The notes under the pieces were generated by a model. The model was given only the letters and a program-made list of their open reading frames with translations. It ran no database searches and was not told the DNA's origin. A stretch of DNA of 64,000 nucleotides from contig NZ_CP020660.1 of NCBI RefSeq assembly GCF_002381345.1, positions 434,001 to 498,000 of the forward strand. The letters run 5' to 3'. Shown piece after piece: positions 28,564-60,872 of this stretch. Numbering within the stretch: position 1 is the first letter of the stretch; the number at the start of each line of letters is the position of its first letter. This stretch comes from Candidatus Enterovibrio altilux. Its GTDB lineage: Bacteria > Pseudomonadota > Gammaproteobacteria > Enterobacterales > Vibrionaceae. The translations under genes and the position numbers were made by a program.

Positions 28564-30748
<2,185 letters not shown>

Positions 30749-30752
<4 letters not shown>

Positions 30753-31450
30753 AAGTCTGTATTATCCCTGCACGCGGGGGAAGTAAGCGCATTCCTTGGA
30801 AAAATATTAAGACTTTTATTGATCAACCAATTATTGCTTATTCCATTGATTTAGCAAAAAAATCAGAACTCTTTAATCGTATTATCGTATCGACAGACAG
30901 CTATAAAATTGCAAGCATAGCTAAAAAATACGACGCAGAGATACCCTTTATTCGACCTACTGATATCGCCAACGACCATGCCACTACACTTGATGTAATC
31001 AAGCATGCAATCGAATGGCTAGAAAAAAATGATGAGCGAGCCATCAGTGCTATATGCTGTCTTTACGCCACAGTGCCATTCGCCCGTCCTTCTGACCTTA
31101 AAAAAAGTCTAGTTTTACTGACTGAAAAAAATATACAATACACTTTTGCCTGCACACGTTTTCCCTTTCCAATTCAGCGTAGTATTCGCATGAACCATGA
31201 AGGTAATGTTGAGATGTTCTGGCCTGAACACTTATCGACACGTTCGCAGGATTTAGAGCCCGCTTTTCATGATGCCGGTATGTTTTATTGGGGTAGACCG
31301 GGTGCGTTCGCCTCTGGGTTACCAATTTTTGCACCACATTCTAAATCCGTTCATATTCCGCATTTTCGTGTGCAAGATATTGATGAGCCTGACGACTGGG
31401 TACGCGCTGAAATGCTTTACGAAATTCTCTCGCAACGAGACGAGTTATGA
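30749..31450 (+). CDS. pseF: CMP-pseudaminic acid synthetase PseF
   Basis: Activates pseudaminic acid with CTP, the last step before transfer. The 233 residues belong to the CMP-NeuAc synthetase-type cytidylyltransferases: nucleotide-binding CIIPARGGSKRIPWKNIK at the N-terminus, IVSTDSYKIA near 47, and RPTDIANDHATTLDVI. The C-terminal YWGRPGAF and DIDEPDDWVRAEMLYE motifs are characteristic of PseF. ATGA overlap with pseC. Confidence 0.95.
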
Positions 31451-32514
31451 ACGTTATGATTCGTGTTGATGCCTCAGAACAAATTGGTACTGGGCACATA
31501 ATGCGCTGCTTAGTGCTATCAAAAAAACTACTCGCACGTAATCACACAGTAACCATATTAAGTCGCGCGCTAAAAGGTAACCTCATTGATTATTGCTGTC
31601 AGCAAGGCATATCGACAGTTGCATTACCAACGATTGAAAAAATCACAGCCTCTAACTACAATGACTACCAGCCTTGGTTAAGAGTAAACCAAAAAAAAGA
31701 CGCAAGGCAATGCTTAACTACGCTGAAAGAAGCTTCTTTTGATTGGATTGTATGTGATCACTATGCTTTGGATACTCAATGGCAATCATTGATGAAACGC
31801 CACGACACAAAGCTCTTAGCCATTGATGATTTAGCCAATCGACAACATAACTGTGACATTTTGTTTGATCATAATCCTTGGCCTAACTTCAAGAACCGAT
31901 ATCACTCATTGATTCCTCCATCTAGTCAGCGATTGCTCGGGCTGAAATTCGCCTTGCTACGCGACAGCTTTATTGAACTAAAAAACATACATGAAGAAAA
32001 CATTAAAAACCAAGTTATCGTGTTTTTCAGTGGATCGGACCCAACAGGCGAATGTTTGAAATTTCTCACGGCTTGTCAATGCATCCCCAACCTGCCATTT
32101 CAAGTGGTGCTAATCTACGGCATATCAAACCCACGAAAAACACAGTTACTTGAAAAATTTCTTCCTCCATTTATCACTTTAGTAAAAAACATACCTGAAT
32201 TTGAGACTCAACTTGCACATTCTCGGTATGCCTTCGGTGGTGTAGGGGTTAGTGCGATAGAACGCACATATTTGCGACTACCCAGTACACTTGTATCAGT
32301 AGCAGAAAATCAACGAGAAATGGCAGAACACCTTGCGAACTCAGGACTCTACCGATACCTCGGTTTAAGTAATAACATAACACCTTTCGATTACACCAAT
32401 GAACTCACATGGTTAGTTGAACATTGGAACAAATTACCTTGGCGATTACCTGAATCTGATATTGATGGTAATGGTGCTAATCGAGTGGTAAAAGCTATGG
32501 AGGCAGCCTCTTGA
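31447..32514 (+). CDS. pseG: UDP-2,4-diacetamido-trideoxy-altropyranose hydrolase PseG
   Basis: Removes UDP from the sugar nucleotide to give the PseI substrate. The 355 residues have a GT-B-like fold similar to MurG: the N-terminal VDASEQIGTGHIMRCL holds the catalytic His of this family, VCDHYALDTQWQ near 100 and AIDDLANRQHNCDILFDHNP near 125 are typical. The C-terminal GGVGVSAIERTYLRLPS is the nucleotide-binding loop. Overlaps pseF (ATGA) and pseH (TTGA). Confidence 0.94.
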   Translation: MNVMIRVDASEQIGTGHIMRCLVLSKKLLARNHTVTILSRALKGNLIDYCCQQGISTVALPTIEKITASNYNDYQPWLRVNQKKDARQCLTTLKEASFDWIVCDHYALDTQWQSLMKRHDTKLLAIDDLANRQHNCDILFDHNPWPNFKNRYHSLIPPSSQRLLGLKFALLRDSFIELKNIHEENIKNQVIVFFSGSDPTGECLKFLTACQCIPNLPFQVVLIYGISNPRKTQLLEKFLPPFITLVKNIPEFETQLAHSRYAFGGVGVSAIERTYLRLPSTLVSVAENQREMAEHLANSGLYRYLGLSNNITPFDYTNELTWLVEHWNKLPWRLPESDIDGNGANRVVKAMEAAS

Positions 32515-33089
32515 CACAACAAATTTTTTCAGCGACCGTATTACTAAAAGCAATGACACGATCTAACCTCAGTATTGTCCGTGAATGGCGAAACACACCA
32601 GCAACTCGCAAAAAAATGTTTACTACCCACGAAATAAAATCAGACGAACACATAACGTGGTTTGAACGTATACAGCAAGATAGCACAAAGCTCTTTTACT
32701 TAGTAAGTATTGAAAATAACGATGTAGGCATTGTTTCATTTACTAATATTAATCAAAAAAATGCATGTGCGGAATGGGGATTTTATAAAAACCCTAATAC
32801 ACGTAAAGGCATAGGGCTTGTGATACTACATGCTACACTGAATCATGCTTTTGACTCACTTAGGTTGAAACAGATTAATAGCCGAGTGTTAGCTATTAAT
32901 CCTAAAGTGCTTCATCTCCACAACAAGCTCGGCTTTACGCGAATTGACGCAAAAACTATTTTTCATAACCAACAAAAAAAAATGATTTCTTACTTCAATT
33001 TAGTAGTAACAAACGACGTTTGGCTTTCCCACGAAGCTGGCGTCAGGAAACAACTCAGGATTTTCTCACAGCAGAGCATGGCACTATGA
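32511..33089 (+). CDS. pseH: UDP-4-amino-sugar N-acetyltransferase PseH
   Basis: GNAT acetyltransferase adding the second acetamido group between the PseC and PseG steps. The 192 residues include VREWRNTPATRKKMFTTHEI, AEWGFYKNPNTRKGIG (acetyl-CoA loop) and INSRVLAINPKVLHLHNKLG. The start is TTG inside a TTGA overlap with the pseG stop; no in-frame ATG lies close enough to keep the N-terminal strand. The genetic order pseGHI makes the assignment firm although GNAT proteins are individually hard to name. Confidence 0.9.
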   Translation: MTQQIFSATVLLKAMTRSNLSIVREWRNTPATRKKMFTTHEIKSDEHITWFERIQQDSTKLFYLVSIENNDVGIVSFTNINQKNACAEWGFYKNPNTRKGIGLVILHATLNHAFDSLRLKQINSRVLAINPKVLHLHNKLGFTRIDAKTIFHNQQKKMISYFNLVVTNDVWLSHEAGVRKQLRIFSQQSMAL

Positions 33090-34135
33090 CGCAAGTGATC
33101 ACTATAGATGGACAGAAAATTGGCCAAGGTCATAAACCTTACATCATTGCGGAAATGTCGGCGAACCATAATGGTTCACTACAACGTGCCTTTCAAATCT
33201 TAGTCATGGCGAAACAAGCAGGGGCTAATGCAGTAAAAATGCAGTCTTACACCGCCAATACCATCACTTTAAACTGCGATTCCGAAGAATTTAAAATTCA
33301 CGGGGGGCTTTGGGACGGGCGCTCCCTTTACGATCTATACCAAGAAACTCACACCCCGTTTGATTGGCACAAGCCTCTCTTCAATAAGGCACAAGAACTA
33401 GGTATTACACTATTTTCATCACCCTTCGATTTTACTGCCGTGGATTTGCTCGAAGATCTCAATGCGCCTGCTTATAAAATTGCCTCATTCGAAGCAATAG
33501 ACTTGCCACTCATTCGTTACGTGGCAAAAACAGGTAAGCCTATGTTCATTTCTACGGGCATGGCAAGTGCTCAAGAAATAGCAGAAGCTGTTACCACAGC
33601 AAGAAACTGCGGATGCCGAGAACTGGTATTACTGCATTGCATTAGCGCTTATCCAGCGCCAGCTTTGCAAAGTCATTTGCGTACCATTCCTGATTTATCT
33701 GAACGTTTTGATGTAGTGACAGGACTGTCAGATCATACATTAGGTACAATAGTGTCAGTCACTGCCGTTGCGCTTGGGGCTGCCGTAATTGAAAAACATT
33801 TTACCTTGAGCCGAAATGATTTTGGTCAAGACGCCACCTTTTCATTGGAACCAGATGAATTGGCAGTATTGTGTCGTGACACACAAATAGCATGGCAAGC
33901 TCTCGGAAGCGCAGGTTACCAGCTAAAAGACGTTGAAAAAGACAACAAACAACTCCGCCGTTCTTTGTATGTATGTCTCGATATAAAAGCGGGTGAAACT
34001 TTGACATTTGCGAATATTCGTAGTGTGAGACCTGGCTTCGGTCTTGCGCCAAAATTCTACGATGATGTGATTGGCACAAGAGCAACAGATGATATTCGCG
34101 CTGGTACCGCCCTTAAATGGAATTTAATTCAATAA
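33086..34135 (+). CDS. pseI: Pseudaminic acid synthase PseI
   Basis: NeuB-type enzyme condensing the PseG product with phosphoenolpyruvate to form pseudaminic acid. Start chosen at 33086 (MTQVITIDGQKIG), which forms the same ATGA overlap as the other junctions and gives 349 residues; an upstream in-frame ATG would add 22 residues overlapping pseH. Visible: IIAEMSANHNGSLQRA, KMQSYTANTITL, FSSPFDFTAVDLLE, GLSDHTLGTI, EKHFTLSR, and a C-terminal SAF/antifreeze-like domain (RRSLYVCLDIKAGE...). Last gene of the operon; no glycosyltransferase or flagellin gene follows. Confidence 0.96.
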   Translation: MTQVITIDGQKIGQGHKPYIIAEMSANHNGSLQRAFQILVMAKQAGANAVKMQSYTANTITLNCDSEEFKIHGGLWDGRSLYDLYQETHTPFDWHKPLFNKAQELGITLFSSPFDFTAVDLLEDLNAPAYKIASFEAIDLPLIRYVAKTGKPMFISTGMASAQEIAEAVTTARNCGCRELVLLHCISAYPAPALQSHLRTIPDLSERFDVVTGLSDHTLGTIVSVTAVALGAAVIEKHFTLSRNDFGQDATFSLEPDELAVLCRDTQIAWQALGSAGYQLKDVEKDNKQLRRSLYVCLDIKAGETLTFANIRSVRPGFGLAPKFYDDVIGTRATDDIRAGTALKWNLIQ

Positions 34136-39317: not shown

Positions 39318-40579
39318 AGCTTTATTTTTTTAATTTTAGTTCAGAGTGTCTATATCAGACATAATTAACTATTATACAATGACTTTTATTTTAAACATAC
39401 CGAGCCCTATCAACTCATTTACAATTTTTATCATAACGTAGGTTTAGCCAATGTGGACATATTGTTATAATCCCTTAGACTCAGTGTCTCACCGAAGAGT
39501 TTGTTGATTCGAAATCATTACTATTTCTGCTAGAGGAACCGTTTATGATAATCGGCTTTATTTCCTAAATAAAGTAACTAAATATTCAATCCACCCTCTA
39601 AACAGCTAAGCTCACTTAAAGATTCAGACCTATGCACAAGCTTTGCTACAAAACAACTAACTGGAAACCGTATAATAAAGCTTTAATCAATTATGACTCA
39701 CTAACATTCTGACTTAGTGAAGAAACTATTTAGCTATATGATCATACTAAGTAAAGTAATCGTGAAAGGCCTCGTATATTTCGCAACTTAGCCCTTACGA
39801 CAGTCCCATGCTTAAACGCATATTTTCAATACCATTGAGAGGTCTACGAGAATTCCTTAATTTTGTTTTTAAACTTACTTAACTGTCATTGTCATGCCCT
39901 CACTATTCATGTCTTAGTGAGCGAGTCAACATAATTAACATCACGTTCAAAACGAAACATTAAGAAATTTTCCGCACTTAGCCATTGATTCTACGGGCGT
40001 AAAGTTTACGGTAAAGATAAGTGGAAAGTAAAAAAGCATGGGATTAATGGGAAATGGCGAGTTTTGCGCAAGTTACATTTAGTAGTAAATATAAATACGC
40101 ATGAAATCATTGCTGCTAAGTTGAATGCATCAAATGTGATTAACGGTACAGTCTTACCCAACTTGTTCAAACTGACCCGCTGAAAAATCAATAACATATT
40201 AGCCGATGGAGCTTACAACACCAGACATGTTACGAAACCGTTCACATTAAACGAGCCGTTCCAATCATACTACTCAGAAAAAGAGCAACTTCTTGGGAAC
40301 GGGGCTATCCACGTTATTTAGCGGTCAGCACCAAAAATCATACAGTTCAAATCAGCTATGGAAAACGCGGTATGGTTACCATAAACGTTCTATATTAAAG
40401 ACTCTAGTGTTTCAAATCAAAACACTATTCGGAGGAAGATTGAGCCACAGGGATCACAATGCCCAAATTAGCAAAATTTATGCCATGATAAAAGCGTTAT
40501 ATAAGCTAACAGGACTAGGTATGTTTCATAGTAAATCATGTTAGGATTTACTATCTAAATTTAAATGAAGAAACAATGT
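39318..40579 (+). mobile_element. Composite IS903-group element X, copy X1
   Basis: Two parts: 39318-39553 is an inverted ~236-bp copy of the IS 3' end (AGCTTTATTTTTTTAATTTT... to CGTTTATGATAATC), fused directly to a full + strand IS at 39554 (GGCTTTATTTCCTAAATAAA to ~40579). The transposase relic (MHKLCYKTTNWKPYNKALIN...) is full of stops. The same fusion point occurs at 41483-42740, 47874-48441 and 55605-56871. Confidence 0.8.
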
Positions 40580-41482: not shown

Positions 41483-42740
41483 GTTTTGCTTCCTAATTCA
41501 AATTCAGGCAGCTAATCTCAACTTGGTTGACTATTAGTCGATCACTTTCGTTTTAGGCATACCTAGCCCTATCAGCTTATCTAACACTTGTATCATGCTG
41601 TCATTTTGTCAATTTAAGGATTAAAATTTCTTTTGCTCCATGCCTCTTCGAAAAATTTTTTGATTTAAACCATTACTATTTTTCATAAAAAATATTTGTA
41701 ATTAATACCCTTTGTTTTTCAATGCGGATTTGAACCATATAACTGTGGTGATTACGCGGATAATCTCATTTTTAAAAAATCGCTTCTTCTCTCAATAGAG
41801 ATGTGTGGAACCGCTCGTTTAATACGAACAGTTTCGTAAGATTCTCTGGTATCATAAACTCCATCGCATGATATTTCATTAATTTTTCGGCGAGTCTATT
41901 TGAATAAGCTAGGTATCACTGGACCGTCAGGTACATTTGGTGAACTCAATTCAAAAGCAATGATTTAATGCGTATTTATATCTACTGCTAAATGTAACTT
42001 GCGCAAAACTTGCTATTTTACATTAATCCCATTTTTTTACTTTTTCACTCACCTTCATCGTAGATTTGAAGCCCCGTAGAATCAATGGCTCAGTGCTGGA
42101 TAGTGCCTTTAGTCTTCATCTTGAACGTAACATTAACTATTTTAGCTCACTTGATCATGCATCAATAGTACGAGCATGATAACGGTAGTTAAGCAAGTTT
42201 GAACACAGAGTTAATGAATCTTAGTATGCCTCACAATAGTATTGACAATACGCGTTTAACCATGAGGGCTGTCGCAATGGCTAATTCACTAAATAAACTA
42301 GCTCTTCCATGCTCACTCTACTTAATTTGATTCGATAACTGAATCACTTCTTCATTAATCCAGAATTGTAGTGAACCCACGATTGATTAAAGCTTGATTA
42401 TACTGCCTCCAGCTAGTTATTTTATAGCAAAGCTTGTTCATAGACCTAAATATTTAAGTGAACCTAGTTGTTTAGAATGTTAATTAAAAATTTAGTCCCT
42501 TATTGAGAAACAAAACCGATCACCATAAACGTTCCATAGCAAAGACAGCAATACTCCAAGTCCAAAAACTACTTGAAGGGACATTGAGTCTAAGGGATCA
42601 CAATGCTCAAATTAGCAAACCTACGCCATAATAAAAACGTTAAATAAGCTGCCAAAATTAAGTATGCCTAACACGAAAGTAATTGTCTAAAAGTGAACCA
42701 TATTGAGGCTTAATATCTTAACTTGAATTAAAAAACAAGT
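41483..42740 (-). mobile_element. Composite IS903-group element X, copy X2
   Basis: 41483-42517 is a minus-strand IS (TTTTGCTTCCTAATTCAAAT to GAGAAACAAAACC). It is fused at its 5' end to a + strand 3' fragment 42518-42740 (ATCACCATAAACGTTCC... to AATTAAAAAACAAGTC). Read on the minus strand this is the same structure and junction as X1 and X3. Transposase destroyed by stops. Confidence 0.8.
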
Positions 42741-43295: not shown

Positions 43296-44334
43296 GGTTT
43301 CGTTTCCTAATTCAAATTCAGATAGCGAATTCCAATCTAACTAATTATTAGACGCTCACTTCGTTTTAGGCGTACCTAGCTCGATCAGCTTATTTAGCGC
43401 TTTTATTATGCCTTAAATTTCGTTAATCTGAGCATTATGATCTTTTAAGCTCAATATCTCTCAAAGTAATTTTTTAACTCAAAACATTGCCATCTCTAAT
43501 AGAGAAAGTGTATAGTAACACTACTTCATTTTCAAGGCTAATCTGAACTATATAATTTTTGGTAACTGACCGCTAAATTACGTGGATAACCTCTCTCCCT
43601 AAAAGTTGCTTTTTTATTGATTGGGTGAGTAGAACCACTTGTTTAATCCGAACGGTTACGTAACATTGTCAGGTACCATAAACATCATCGGTTAATATTT
43701 CATTGGTTCTCGGCAAGTCTATTTGAGTAAATTAGATAACACTGCACCATCAGTAACATTTGATGTACTTAACTCAGCAGTAATCATTTTATGCGTATTT
43801 ATATCTACTGCAAGTGTAACTTACTTACGCTAGATTCACTGTTTTCCATCAGTACCATACTTTTTACTTCCCATTCGACTTCATTATAAATTTTGAACCC
43901 CATAGAATCAATAACTAAGTGCTAAATTGTTCCTTTAGTCTTCATCTTGCACACGACGTTAACCGTTTTAACTCGCTTGCTAATACATGAATAGAAACGG
44001 CTGTTGAACAAGTTTGTAAACAGAATTAATGAATCTTCACAGACTTCTCAATGGTATTAAAAATACGCGTTTAACCATAGGAGCAATCGTAATAGCTCAG
44101 TCACTAAACAAACGAGGTCTTCCACGATTATCCTGCTTAGTCTGATTACATAGCTAAATGATTATTTCATCCACCCACAATGTTAGTGAATCACGATTAA
44201 TTAAAGCTTAATTATACTGCTTCCCGTTTGTTGCTTTGTAGCTAAATTTCTCTATAGACTTGAACATTTAAATATGAACCTAGCGCTTAGAGCGTAGATT
44301 GAAAATTTAGCTCTCTGATTTAGAAAACAAGGCC
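43296..44334 (-). mobile_element. IS903-group element, degenerate copy 9
   Basis: 1.04 kb from GGTTTCGTTTCCTAATTCAA to TTTAGAAAACAAGGCC. All transposase landmarks can be followed in the minus strand but are interrupted by stops and frameshifts. The right end is 21 bases from the hemH stop. Confidence 0.87.
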
Positions 44335-45397: not shown

Positions 45398-46446
45398 AGC
45401 TTTATTTCCTAATTCTAGCGCAGATAGCAAATCTCAAGATAATTGACGATTAAACAAGCGCTGTTATTTTAGGCATACCTAGCCCTATCAGCTTATTTAA
45501 TGCTTTTATCAGGGCTTAAGTTTCGCTAATCTGAGCACTATGATCTCTTAAGCTCAATGTTCCTCCCAGTAGCGTTTTAATTCGAAGCTTTCCCGTCTCT
45601 GATAGGGGCGTTTATGGTAACCATACCTCATTTTTCAATGCTGATTGGAATCGTATAACTTCTGGTAGCTAACCGCTAAATTGCGCGGATGACCTCGTTT
45701 TTAAAAGTTATTCCTTTTCTTATCTTGGTGGGTTGAGTGGAACCATTCGTTTAATACAAACGGTTTCGTAAGATTGCTTGGTGTCGTAAGCACCATCGAC
45801 TGATATTTCATTGATTTTTCAACGAGTCTGGCGCCAGTTGATAACACTTCACTGTTAGTCGCATTTGATGCACTTAACTCAGAAGCAATAATTTCATGCA
45901 TATCTATATCTACTGCTAAATGTAACTGGCACCAGGCTCGTCGTTTCCAATCAGTACCATGCCTTTTTACTATCCATTCTCCTTCACCGTAGACTTTGAA
46001 CCCCCATAGAATAAATGAATAAGTTCTGGATTTTTCCTTTATTCTTCATCCCGAACGTGGTATTAACCATTTCAGATCGCTTGCTAATGCATTAATGGTG
46101 GAGACATGACCATGACAATTGAGTAAGTTTGAACATAAAATTAATGAACTATTGTTGGCCTCCCATTGGCATTGAAAATAAACATTTTACCATGAGAGCC
46201 ATCACAATGGCTAAGTCGTTAAATAAACGCAGTCTCCCCCTGATTACCCTGCTTAGTTTAATTCCATAGCTGAATAGCTTCTTCATCACTCCAAAATGTT
46301 AATGACACACAATTAATTAAAACTTGGTTCACTATTCCCAGTTAGTTATTTTGTAACGAAAATTATTCATAAATCTAAATGTTTACGTGAGCTTAACTGT
46401 TTAGAGTATTGATTGAACATTTAGTCCTTCTTTAATAAACAAAGTC
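45398..46446 (-). mobile_element. IS903-group element, degenerate copy 10
   Basis: 1.05 kb from AGCTTTATTTCCTAATTCTA to TTTAATAAACAAAGTC. The best frame (45701-45901) covers MHEIIASELSASNATNSEVL, i.e. the middle of the transposase. Sits 70 bases upstream of the hemH start. Inactive. Confidence 0.87.
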
Positions 46447-46787
46447 ACATTCGTCTCATATATAAAAAAAAGAATTTTTGGAGAACTAGGTCATCTGTGC
46501 AACTTAGCCGTCAGTTACCAGAAATTAGACGGTTCAGATTAACACTGAAAAACGAAGCATAGTTGCTATAAACGTTCCCTATCAGAGCCAACAATGTCCC
46601 GCAAGTTATAAAATTTTTCAAAAAAACATTGAATCTAAGGGGTTACAATGCCCAGATTAGCGAAACCTACGCAATGATAAAACGTTAAATAAATTGACCG
46701 AATTAGATATGCCTAAAACGAAAGCGGGCGTCTAATCATTCATTCTGTTGGGGTTGACTACCTGAACTTGAACTAGGAAACAAAGCC
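46447..46787 (+). mobile_element. IS903-group inverted 3' fragment abutting copy 10
   Basis: Starts within the transposase at the PRKGATFWE codons (TTTTTGGAGAACTAGGTCATC) and runs to the normal 3' end AACTAGGAAACAAAGCC. It touches the 5' end of copy 10, giving a structure like element X but with a longer inverted fragment (~340 bp) and canonical rather than X-type diagnostic bases (CCTATCAG). Confidence 0.75.
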
Positions 46788-47873: not shown

Positions 47874-48441
47874 AGCTTTATTTTCTAATTTGCGTTTAAA
47901 TAGTAAATTCCAGTATGATTCACTATAAAATAATTATTGGCGTTTTAGGCATACTTAGCCCTCATCATTAAGCGAGTATTTTCAATGCCATTGAGAGGTT
48001 TCCCATAATTGCCCTGCTTAGTTTGATTCCATAGCTAAATAGCTTCTTCATAAAACCAGAATATAAGTCAGCCACAATTGATTAAAGCTTAATTATACTA
48101 CTTTCAATTAGTTGTTTTATAACAAAATTTATGCATAGACCCTAATGTTTAAGCGAGCCTAACTGTTTAGAGTATTGATTGAAAATTTAGTTCCCTGACT
48201 TTAAAAAATAAAGCAGGTTACCATAAACATTTCATAGCAGAGACAGCAATGGTTCGAGTCAAAAACTACTGGTAGAGCCATTGAGTCTAAGAAATCACAC
48301 AACTCAGATTAGTGAAACCACCGCCATGATACAAGCATTCAACAAACTGACAAGATTAGGTATGTCTAACACGCACGCGATTATCTAATTAGTGAATCAT
48401 TTTCAGATTTGTTATCTGAACTCGAATTAAAAAACAAAGCC
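47874..48441 (-). mobile_element. Composite IS903-group element X, copy X4 (deleted)
   Basis: 47874-~48215 holds the minus-strand 3' and 5' ends with a rearranged, mostly deleted interior (a short + strand piece ATTTTCAATGCCATTGAGAG is spliced in). 48216-48441 is the + strand 3' fragment starting GGTTACCATAAACATTTC and ending AAAAACAAAGCC. The fusion point and the TCATAGCAGAGAC bases match the other X copies. Confidence 0.75.
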
Positions 48442-55604: not shown

Positions 55605-56871
55605 GGCTTTATTTCTTAATTCGAGTTCAGATAGCCAATCCCAAGATAATTAACAATTAAACAAGCGCTTTTGTTTTAAGTATACCTAGCGCAGTCAGCT
55701 GATTTAACGCTTTTATTATGGCACAGGTTTCACTAATCTAAGTTACGTGATCCCTTAGGTTCAAAGTCCCTCCCAATAATTTTTTGGCTTGAGCCATTAC
55801 TGTTTTTGCTAGGAAACGTTTATGGTAACAGGCTTTATTTCCTAAATAAGGCAACTACACTTTCAACCAATACTCTAGGCAGTTAAGTTCACTTAAATAT
55901 TCAAGTCTATAAATAATCTTAGCTACAACACAACTCACTGGAAGCATTATAATCAAGCTTTAATCAATCGTGGCTCACTAACATTCTGGATTGATGAAGA
56001 AGCCATTCAACTATGGAATTAAACTAAGCTGGGTAATCATAGGAGACCTCGTTTAATTAGCTACTTAACCATTAATAACGGCCTTCATGGTTAAACGCAT
56101 ATTTTCAATACAATGGAAAGTCCTAAAAAAATTCATTAATTTTATTTTAAACTTACTCAACTGCAGTTATCATAGCCTCACTATTCATGCATGAGCAAAC
56201 GAGCCAAAGCAGTTAACGCCACGTTCAAGACACAGACAAAAGGAACCATCCAGCATTTAGCCGTTGATTCTACGGTGCTAAAAATCTATGGTGAAGGCGA
56301 ATGGAAAGTAAAAGAGCATGGCACTGATAAACAACGGTAAGTCTGGCACAAGTTACATTTAGAGAAGATCTAAATACGCATGCAATCATTGCTTATGAGT
56401 TAAGTATACTAAATGTAATTGACGGTGAAGTGCGACCTAACTTGCTCAAACAGATCCGCCGAAAAATCAATAAAATATCCGGCAATGATATTTATGACAC
56501 TAGACAATATTACGCAACCATTCGTATTCAATGAGTGGTTCCACTCATCCCACCAAGGAAAAAAGCAGCTTTTAGGGAAAACAGTCATTCCCATAATGTA
56601 GCAGTAAGTTACCAGGAGCTATACGTTTCAAATCAGCATTAAAAAATAAAGTATGGTTACCATAAACATGCCTTATTAGAAAAGGCAATCTTTCGAGTCA
56701 TAAAATGATTTGGAGGGATATTTAACCTAAGGAATTACGATTCTATAATTTATATAATAATTAAAGCACCAAATAAATTAATAGAGTCAGGTATACTTAA
56801 AATTAAAGTTTTTATCTAACAACTAACTATCTTGGAACTGCCTACTCGAACTAACGTTAGGAAACGAAGCC
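55605..56871 (+). mobile_element. Composite IS903-group element X, copy X3 (best preserved)
   Basis: Inverted 3' fragment 55605-55830 (GGCTTTATTTCTTAATTCGA to CGTTTATGGTAACA), then a full + strand IS 55831-56871 (GGCTTTATTTCCTAAATAAG to GGAAACGAAGCC). The transposase is broken (e.g. ISLNNEELFN-type stops), but IQLWN, VDSTVLKIYGEGEWKVKE and IPPRKKAAF are readable. Inserted in an older minus-strand fragment. Confidence 0.82.
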
Positions 56872-59199: not shown

Positions 59200-60235
59200 A
59201 GCTTTATTTCCTAATTCGCGTGTAGACAGCCAATCCCAACATGATTAACTATAAAACAATTACTTTTGTTTTAAACATAGCTAGCTCTGTCAACTTATTA
59301 AACACTTTTATCATCCTGTAGATTCCTTTAATCTGCACATTGTTCTCTCTTCGATTCAATGTCCCTCCCCGTAGCTTTTTAACTAAAAACGTTGCCGCTC
59401 ATTTATGTAACCATACCTCGCTTTTCAATACTGATTTGAACCACATAGCTGCTGACAACTTACCACTAAATTACGTGGATTATTTCTTTCGCCAAAAATT
59501 GCTTCTTTTCCTGGTGGGATGAGTGTAATCATTCGCTTAATACGAACGATTTCGTAATATTGTCTAGTGTCATAAGCACTGTTTCTAGATATTTCATTAA
59601 TTCTTCGATGGATCTATTCAAGCAAATTAAGTAGCACTTAACCTTCAATTGCATTTGATACGCTTAATTGAGATAATAATTGCATAGGAATTTATATCTA
59701 CCTCTAAATGTAACATGTGCGAGACTCACTGTTTCCCATCAGTACCATATTCTTTTGCTTTTCATTCGCCTTCACCGTAGACTTTTAGTCCCGTAGAATC
59801 CATGACTAAGTGCTGAATAGTTCCTTTTTTCTGCCTCTTGAACACGACGTTAACCATTTTGGCTCACTTGCTCATGCATGAATAGTAAGAGCATAATAAT
59901 GGCAGATGAGTAAGTTTGAAAACAGAATTAATGAATCCTTTCAGGCCTCTCAATGGTATTGAAAATACGCGTTTAACCATGAAAACCGTCGTAATGGCTA
60001 AATTGCTAAATAAATGCAGTCTTCCATAATTATCCAGTTTAACTTGGTGCCATAATTAAATAGCTTCTGCATCAATCCAGCGTGCCAGTGAACCATGATT
60101 GATGAAAGCGTGGTTATACTACTTCCAGTTGGTTATTCTGTAGCGGAGTTTATTCATAGACCTGAATACTTAAGTGACTCTAGCTGTTTAGAACGTAAAT
60201 TGATAATTTCGTTCTATTATTGAGGAAACTAAGCC
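59200..60235 (-). mobile_element. IS903-group element, degenerate copy 12
   Basis: 1.04 kb from AGCTTTATTTCCTAATTCGC to TTGAGGAAACTAAGCC. Transposase interrupted by stops in every landmark segment; no frame over ~60 codons. Confidence 0.87.
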
Positions 60236-60872
60236 CATTCAAGACGAAGACTAAAGGAACAATCTAATACTTAGCCGTTGATTTTACGGGGCTCCAAGTC
60301 TACGGTGAAGACGAATAACAAATAAAAAAGCATGGTACTGATGAGAACGTAGAGTCTAGTGCCAGTGACATGTAGTAATAGATATAAATCCGTGAACAAT
60401 CATTACCTGAATTAAGTGCATCAAATATGACTAACGATGAAGTCTTACCTGACTTACCTAAATAAACCCGCCGAAGAATCAATGAAACATAAGGTAATGG
60501 TGCGTACGGCACAATTCGTATTGAGCGAACAGCTACACTCATTCCACCAAGAACAGGAGCAACTTATAACGAAGGAAGTCATCCGCGTAATTTAACAGTC
60601 AATTACTCATAGTTATACGGTCAAATCAACATTATCAAACAGAATATACTCACCATAAACGTATCCAGCCAGAAACACCAATGGTTCAAGTCAAAAAATC
60701 ACTCACAAGTACATTGAGCCTAAGAAGGTATAATTTTATTGTTGGCATAACCTACACCATGATACAAGCATCACATAAACTCACAAGTTAAGTATACCTC
60801 AAACGAAAGCGATTGTCTAATCGTTAATAATACTAGAATTTACCATCTGAACTCAGATTAGGAAACAGAGCC
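60236..60872 (+). mobile_element. IS903-group inverted 3' fragment abutting copy 12
   Basis: Starts mid-transposase (TTCAAGACGAAGACTAAAGG, the FKTKTKG codons) and runs to the 3' end ATTAGGAAACAGAGCC. Together with copy 12 this again gives a complete element whose 5' end is joined to an inverted 3' fragment, here ~640 bp long. Confidence 0.78.

Follow-up and report, generated by a model that had tools for sequence, protein, structure and literature searches.

X is an insertion sequence (IS) that carries a ~225-bp inverted copy of its own 3′ end (the arm) abutting its left end, and very likely it descends from an IS5-family, IS903-type element whose left end was replaced by a second right end, forming a derived lineage that then spread as a unit. 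The X unit measures ~1.27 kb; copies without an arm are called ordinary here. Three independent observations support this reading: a junction common to the copies, the sharp terminus of the arm, and a far-side test for a resuming host element.

The DNA comes from a genome already noted for its transposases. CC26 is a strain of 'Candidatus Enterovibrio luxaltus', the luminous symbiont of the anglerfish C. couesii, and the available part of its genome description counts 672 IS5-family transposases, complete ones numbering zero, which are truncated or without inverted-repeat regions and are interpreted as a single burst (PMC6020299); these results are cited again, with nothing added, in the accessible part of a further paper (PMC6773444).

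Sample and Model

We began from a 64,000-nucleotide stretch (the window) of the Ca. Enterovibrio luxaltus genome, which comprises 2,143,356 bases in four contigs, contig C1 accounting for 1,604,691 of them. Copies were collected by an nhmmer search over 572,234 bases, made up of the window, 20 evenly spaced stretches and 40 stretches picked by their likeness to X or to an ordinary copy. The 1050-position DNA model was built from 54 full-length matches, some of which are the same copy seen in two overlapping stretches. A left end was counted if its match began at or before model position 12 and covered at least 150 model positions, other matches being left out; 409 matches yielded 147 qualifying left ends. 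Within the unselected sample, 458,000 bases picked without regard to matches, IS matches make up 27.7% of the sequence.

Library matches place the IS in the IS5 family. An X copy with an intact transposase had been proposed as a target for search, and none was found among the 147 sampled copies: the longest sense-strand stretch free of stops, in X and ordinary copies together, does not exceed 161 aa, so all of the sampled copies are now dead. Most changes from the consensus in these copies are G to A or C to T, the pattern that decay should leave when the genome is AT-rich. Elsewhere in the window, positions 28579-34135 hold consecutive intact reading frames that have survived the strong reduction of the genome and that, from their translations, judged by eye, we take to resemble a pseudaminic or legionaminic acid sugar pathway.

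Structure of X in the Window

The original prediction described four places in the window as having the same structure. In all four an inverted 3′ end abuts the left end of the IS, but the likeness is not complete, because the body of the copy at 47874-48441 has lost model positions 221-962, which are replaced by a 73-base inverted scrap (model 229-301). The junction was said to be identical in the four copies, and the model places it at positions 825-826 in each. The base held in common at TGCTA.GG is likewise real; it is arm position 847, which is G in 81% of arms, whereas at 3′ ends T prevails, in 91% of those of X and 70% of the ordinary ones. The coordinates of these copies, with one ordinary and two other copies from the window, are collected in the table; the last ~10 bases of the arm of copy 4 overlap the IRL match.

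Table. IS copies in the window, with coordinates in the window and positions in the 1050-position model
Feature	Model positions	Coordinates	Strand	Basis
X copy 1, extent		39326-40577	+	model
X copy 1, arm	825-1044	39326-39554	-	nhmmer, junction class
X copy 1, IS body	1-1048	39554-40577	+	nhmmer
X copy 2, extent		41484-42738	-	model
X copy 2, IS body	3-1049	41484-42515	-	nhmmer
X copy 2, arm	810-1047	42503-42738	+	nhmmer, junction class
X copy 3, extent		47875-48440	-	model
X copy 3, body 3′ part	963-1050	47875-47962	-	nhmmer
X copy 3, body 5′ part, internally deleted	2-220	47995-48214	-	nhmmer
X copy 3, arm	808-1050	48199-48440	+	nhmmer, junction class
X copy 4, extent		55606-56870	+	model
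X copy 4, arm, inverted IS 3′ end	815-1050	55606-55840	-	nhmmer, junction class
X copy 4, IS body, broken transposase	1-1050	55831-56870	+	nhmmer
Ordinary armless copy, for contrast	1-1049	43298-44334	-	nhmmer
Copy without the X junction, left end abuts inverted 3′ piece 46444-46786 (model 709-1050)		45399-46445	-	nhmmer
Non-X copy, left end abuts inverted 3′ piece 60236-60871 (model 392-1050)		59201-60235	-	nhmmer

Secondary internal deletions occur in some X copies, and among the IS copies on C1 several internal deletions recur: model 714 to 794 (four X copies), 243 to 425 (five IS copies) and 329 to 611 (four IS copies). The break points of these deletions show overlaps of about 8-12 bases, which would fit slippage between short repeats. 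Recurrent deletions were rejected as proof of shared descent, since breaks that overlap by up to 14 bases can recur independently.

Junction and Abundance

Across the 572 kb, 81 of the 147 left ends abut an inverted IS 3′ part, two abut a direct part and 64 neither. The arm and the IS adjoin directly or with at most a few bases between them. The junction lies at model 825-827 in 67 of the 81 inverted arrangements, and a concentration of this kind on three adjacent positions excludes chance. These 67 X left ends (67/147) come from a sample chosen in part by similarity to X; in the unselected 458 kb, X supplies about a third of the left ends, with 35 of 101 against 13 in other inverted arrangements, 2 beside a direct part and 51 beside none. 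Extrapolation from contig C1 only gives ~160 X copies genome-wide, with a Poisson range of roughly 114-228. A query of arm plus left end matched at least 40 junction-spanning places in this genome, the query included, among the best 40 of 794 candidates, and the X junction recurs on three contigs.

The other 14 inverted junctions fall at 330, 360, 392, 712, 725, 796, 821, 845, 859, 878, 898, 905, 931 and 975. Some of them are probably X as well, the one at 821 having an X-type head. The inverted joins at singleton positions 330-796 are the two in the window and those at C1:833496, 1463209, 275250 and 1461016. Similar inverted joins thus arise repeatedly, and only the 825 junction has multiplied in the sample.

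A Linked Head and Arm

The strongest differences between X and ordinary copies are at positions 7, 18, 32, 39, 42, 53, 58, 87 and 105, all within the first 110 bp; site 252 shows a shift comparable to that of the head sites. Against shuffled labels, the mean allele shift reaches z 13.9 over positions 1-60 and 4.1 over 61-110, and it is small, though not zero, in the bins beyond 110 bp (z 0.5 to 5.4). When copies are scored by the haplotype at 32, 39 and 42, alleles selected from the very copies in which they are then counted, those with an arm divide into 57 X-like, 8 mixed and 2 ordinary-like heads and those without into 4, 13 and 47, so that an arm is present in 57 of the 61 heads scored X-like. 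The unselected sample gives 28, 5 and 2 with an arm and 2, 13 and 36 without.

Separate trees of the arm and the body had been suggested, with the expectation that X copies would group together, and the outcome depends on the region. A tree of positions 1-110 separates X from ordinary copies with 14 label changes, against a mean of 43.7 in 100 shuffles (minimum 38), whereas the trees of 250-700 (25 changes vs 25.8) and 700-1050 (23 vs 20.1) do not; positions 80-250 give 30 against 41.3. The head and the arm are therefore one linked module, and farther on the body is for the most part common to X and ordinary copies. X is thus not a cleanly separate lineage along its full length, and the sharing beyond ~250 bp makes recombination between copies likely.

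The arms are also distinctive in sequence. Over ten arm-type sites, selected from the same data in which they are scored, the arm-type allele occupies 447 of 612 scored sites in arms; for 3′ ends the figures are 72 of 420 in X and 49 of 221 in ordinary copies. Arm-type alleles are in the majority in 54 of 67 arms; the 13 without such a majority include the arm of window copy 1 (4 vs 6). Five X copies are nearer the ordinary state over seven head sites, and three of these five keep mostly arm-type arms. The idea that X is the younger class was set aside: its mean divergence of 0.155, against 0.184 for ordinary copies, among all fetched copies (p 2.5e-5) becomes 0.171 against 0.186 (p 0.11) in the unselected sample.

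Movement of X

X moved as a unit, with a right-type end on both sides, as the original prediction had it; the evidence is the arm terminus, a nested copy and the far-side test given below. To profile the outer edge, we pooled the 57 of 67 arms that reach their end. The composition is that of a right terminus inside the edge and near background outside it, like that of ordinary termini.

The X at C1:1479751-1481008 sits whole inside an ordinary IS, which continues to its left and to its right. Once the matches are extended to the ends of X, which is an extrapolation, the host halves overlap by 9 bases (host 392-400); unextended, the host matches overlap at 399-403, and the right-hand one is weak (24.5 bits). 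The 9-base flanks are alike at five of nine letters, and the other four are C/T differences. The target duplication of IS903 is 9 bp. Two further units have host IS on both sides, with about 53 host bases lost at 595166-596407, about 120 lost at about 180591-181813, and none duplicated at either.

Target duplications were dropped as a general proof of movement, as they are eroded in both classes. Among X units, 9-mers match at 0.326 against 0.285 expected (30 units with both outer ends, z 1.4), and among 21 ordinary units at 0.381 against 0.327 (z 1.8). An IS can lose its target duplications through recombination and adjacent deletion, and adjacent deletions are reportedly common for IS903, according to the available part of one source (PMC11708052). 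Host IS is found on one side only in 16 of the 19 units, again those with both outer ends, that have an IS neighbour.

Several IS and X insertions on C1 lie at near-identical host IS positions, ~344-346 and ~392-403, which suggests that the element contains target hotspots. The junctions with the host IS lie at 345 and 346 in two X units and near 344 in a third, which is truncated; we make no claim for a second-order composite of host 1-~346 and an inverted X, as the flanks and junction details differ. A greater tendency of X than of ordinary copies to insert into older IS was also considered and dropped, because the ordinary class by definition excludes left-side IS neighbours.

The strongest competing account is that the module of arm and left end spread mainly by recombination or gene conversion and not by transposition of a unit. 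It would fit the trees of the distal body, which do not separate X from ordinary copies, the general loss of target duplications, and the frequency with which host sequence is seen on one side only. Exchange of this kind, however, keeps the flanks of the copy that it overwrites; it would not readily give 57 arms a sharp terminus with unrelated sequence beside it, or make a whole X with a 9-base host overlap. We consider this account improbable as the main route, and we regard recombination or gene conversion as a probable contributor to the mosaic bodies of a unit that transposed.

Direction of Change

In a plasmid collection, 1,989 records match X, none of them over more than 80% of X in one place. 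The top match is an armless IS on Vibrio gigantis plasmid p1 (NZ_AP025494), which covers model positions 1 to 1050 and encodes an intact transposase of 306 aa. This protein matches NF033579 transpos_IS5_2 at 380.5 bits (cut-off 140), together with PF13737/PF01609; it is in this intact relative, and not in the broken copies themselves, that the IS5-type DDE transposase was recognized. The V. gigantis element has the ordinary allele at 7, 18, 39, 42, 53, 58 and 87, whereas at 32, and at 252, where the shift is weaker, its allele is that of X. Being armless and ordinary at seven of eight key head sites, it indicates that X is the derived form. On p1 this IS adjoins a csm6 CRISPR-associated nuclease gene.

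Relatives in other genomes agree. Eighty were kept, of which 7 lie too near a contig end, leaving 73 testable, one of them from Ca. E. escacola; the arm is absent from all 73, none having an upstream inverted match longer than 33 bases, the length of match given by the ordinary terminal repeat. Nine IS loci in a congeneric genome follow the ordinary consensus from position 1, most of them at contig ends, and no inverted 3′ match was found beside the nine. Arm plus left end was matched in none of 17 other genomes of the genus, among the matches listed. In a Gammaproteobacteria MAG, one relative is preceded by a direct tandem copy of 983 bases, 96% identical, which ends 79 bases upstream of that relative's transposase match.

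Could the long-armed form instead be ancestral, the ordinary IS having arisen from it by use of the inner left end? An X-type head is present in 4 of 64 armless copies, so that the inner end may now and then have been used, or the arm lost, and the V. gigantis element does share two alleles with X. The lack of the arm in the 73 relatives and of its junction in the 17 genomes listed above, and the predominantly ordinary, armless state of the V. gigantis IS, make this direction very unlikely. By these sequence comparisons X is derived, and it is known so far only from this genome. At positions 983, 984 and 996 the arm has the base of both Vibrio relatives, and ordinary and X 3′ ends differ from it; because the arm keeps these bases, it probably descends from a branch of the family that is older than the body's.

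Formation of the Junction

Each X might be an independent insertion of an IS at a hotspot, position 825 of an inverted copy, that is, simple nesting, with the host resuming on the far side of the IS. IS-into-IS events are common here, and host positions do recur (about 344-346 and 392-403). Far-side resumption was named in advance as the observation that would speak against X, and we looked for it in the 39 X copies whose body reaches model position 1030 or beyond, over the 60 bp past the right end. The host was found at position 825 in 0 of 39: there was no IS match within the 60 bp in 32 copies, and in the remaining 7 the neighbour lay at host positions 76, 80, 170, 216, 344, 349 and 403. 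Since the host never resumes at ~825 beyond X, with the remainder absent or elsewhere in all 39 copies, simple nesting is excluded for them. Arms and heads moreover have private alleles in common, and the outer edges of the arms adjoin unrelated flanks. We give repeated independent nesting almost no credence as an account of X.

Inverted repeats near replication forks can switch templates, so a local origin of each arm, for example through a switch to the 3′ end of the same copy as template, is conceivable in general, as is an assembly artefact, the published assembly being a short-read one at 14x by the available part of its description (PMC6020299); but the likeness of an arm to the 3′ end of its own copy (70.0% over 38 pairs) does not exceed that to other X 3′ ends (70.3%) and is greatest to other arms (72.7%), the copies differ by roughly 20-30% and are thus not easily collapsed or mis-joined, and the same junction is found on three contigs, which leaves both ideas scarcely tenable beside descent of X from one junction.

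Proposed Origin

The terminal repeats begin GGCTTTGTT in the consensus of the ordinary IRL, the IRR and the arm end; we take GGCTTTGTT to be the IS903 terminal-repeat motif and use IS903 as the presumed group name for this IS. Members of that group have one left and one right end, and the outer ends of X are both right-type, which makes X a derivative and not an ordinary member. Position 7 of the repeat separates the ends further. The buried IRL of X has A in 59 and G in 4 of the 66 copies with a base there, and the outer IRR of the arm has G in 38 and A in 17 of 58 copies. Ordinary left ends have G in 35 of 63. G is the consensus of right ends, in X and ordinary copies, and is also the V. gigantis base; the 14 other inverted arrangements, a small mixed class, have A.

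We propose that X began when the left end of an IS became joined to a neighbouring copy in inverted orientation, at position 825 of that copy, ~225 bp short of its right end. The IS may have inserted into the neighbour, or an adjacent deletion may have brought the two together; either would serve as the birth event. The product would have had two outward right-type termini, the arm IRR and the body IRR, and a buried left terminus. The transposase may then have paired the two outer right ends, so that the whole unit moved and multiplied. With the arm supplying a working right-type end, the old left end would have been free to change; having lost its role, it would then have changed at position 7 of the terminal repeat. 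If the altered end is weak, as we suppose, this change would have made the larger unit the one that moves. More tentatively, the exchange of a weaker left terminus for a second right terminus may have produced a more successful transposon, with decay of the buried end locking the form in, a scenario that we regard as quite possible but would not yet favour; if it holds, the new form supplied about a third of left ends when the element died out.

Comparison with Known Systems

Among titles and the beginnings of abstracts, with subscription journals and ISfinder entries lying outside the survey, no report was found of an IS to which a second, inverted copy of its 3′ end is attached, and the available part of the CC26 genome description does not mention the arrangement (PMC6020299). 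What is unusual in X is the replaced end together with the scale of its spread, and the gain of an end in this way was not found described in bacteria. X is a bacterial IS that altered its own end architecture, the new form spreading widely in a setting where transposons drive genome reduction, and it makes the use of two right ends, as against one left and one right, directly assayable. Where an annotation shows nothing but plain IS5 pseudogenes, inverted arms of ~225 bp can go unnoticed, and such arms provide further sites at which inversions and deletions can occur.

The ordinary IS, represented by the copy on V. gigantis p1 (NZ_AP025494), has the same kind of terminal repeats, with all 1050 model positions matched; relative to it, X adds the ~225-bp inverted 3′ arm, and its left terminus is buried and altered. 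In Wolbachia, bacterial IS inversion occurs by recombination between terminal repeats, and the likeness to X, as far as the available part of that study goes, lies in inverted ends in an IS of a host-associated bacterium (Ling and Cordaux 2010, PMC3004938). The Wolbachia IS flips between its terminal repeats, whereas X gained and multiplied an extra ~225-bp inverted end (PMC3004938). Autointegration, from the accessible part of its source, is another of the nearest ideas to X (PMC3952818).

Like MITEs and internally deleted IS derivatives, X is a non-standard form that multiplied alongside its parent IS. MITEs, however, are short and non-coding, whereas X at ~1.27 kb exceeds its parent in length and retains the transposase region in full. 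Movement with outer ends from two IS copies is also a feature of composite transposons, of which Tn903 is an example; in X the partner is only a ~225-bp fragment, directly abutting, and there is no cargo. The double and nested Ds elements of maize consist of a transposon joined to an inverted copy of itself, with extra ends, and in this they resemble X. Nested Ds are tied to chromosome breakage, and no double Ds is present in B73, according to the available part of one report (PMC3260210). X differs from the maize elements in that it became an abundant mobile unit, and did so in a bacterium.
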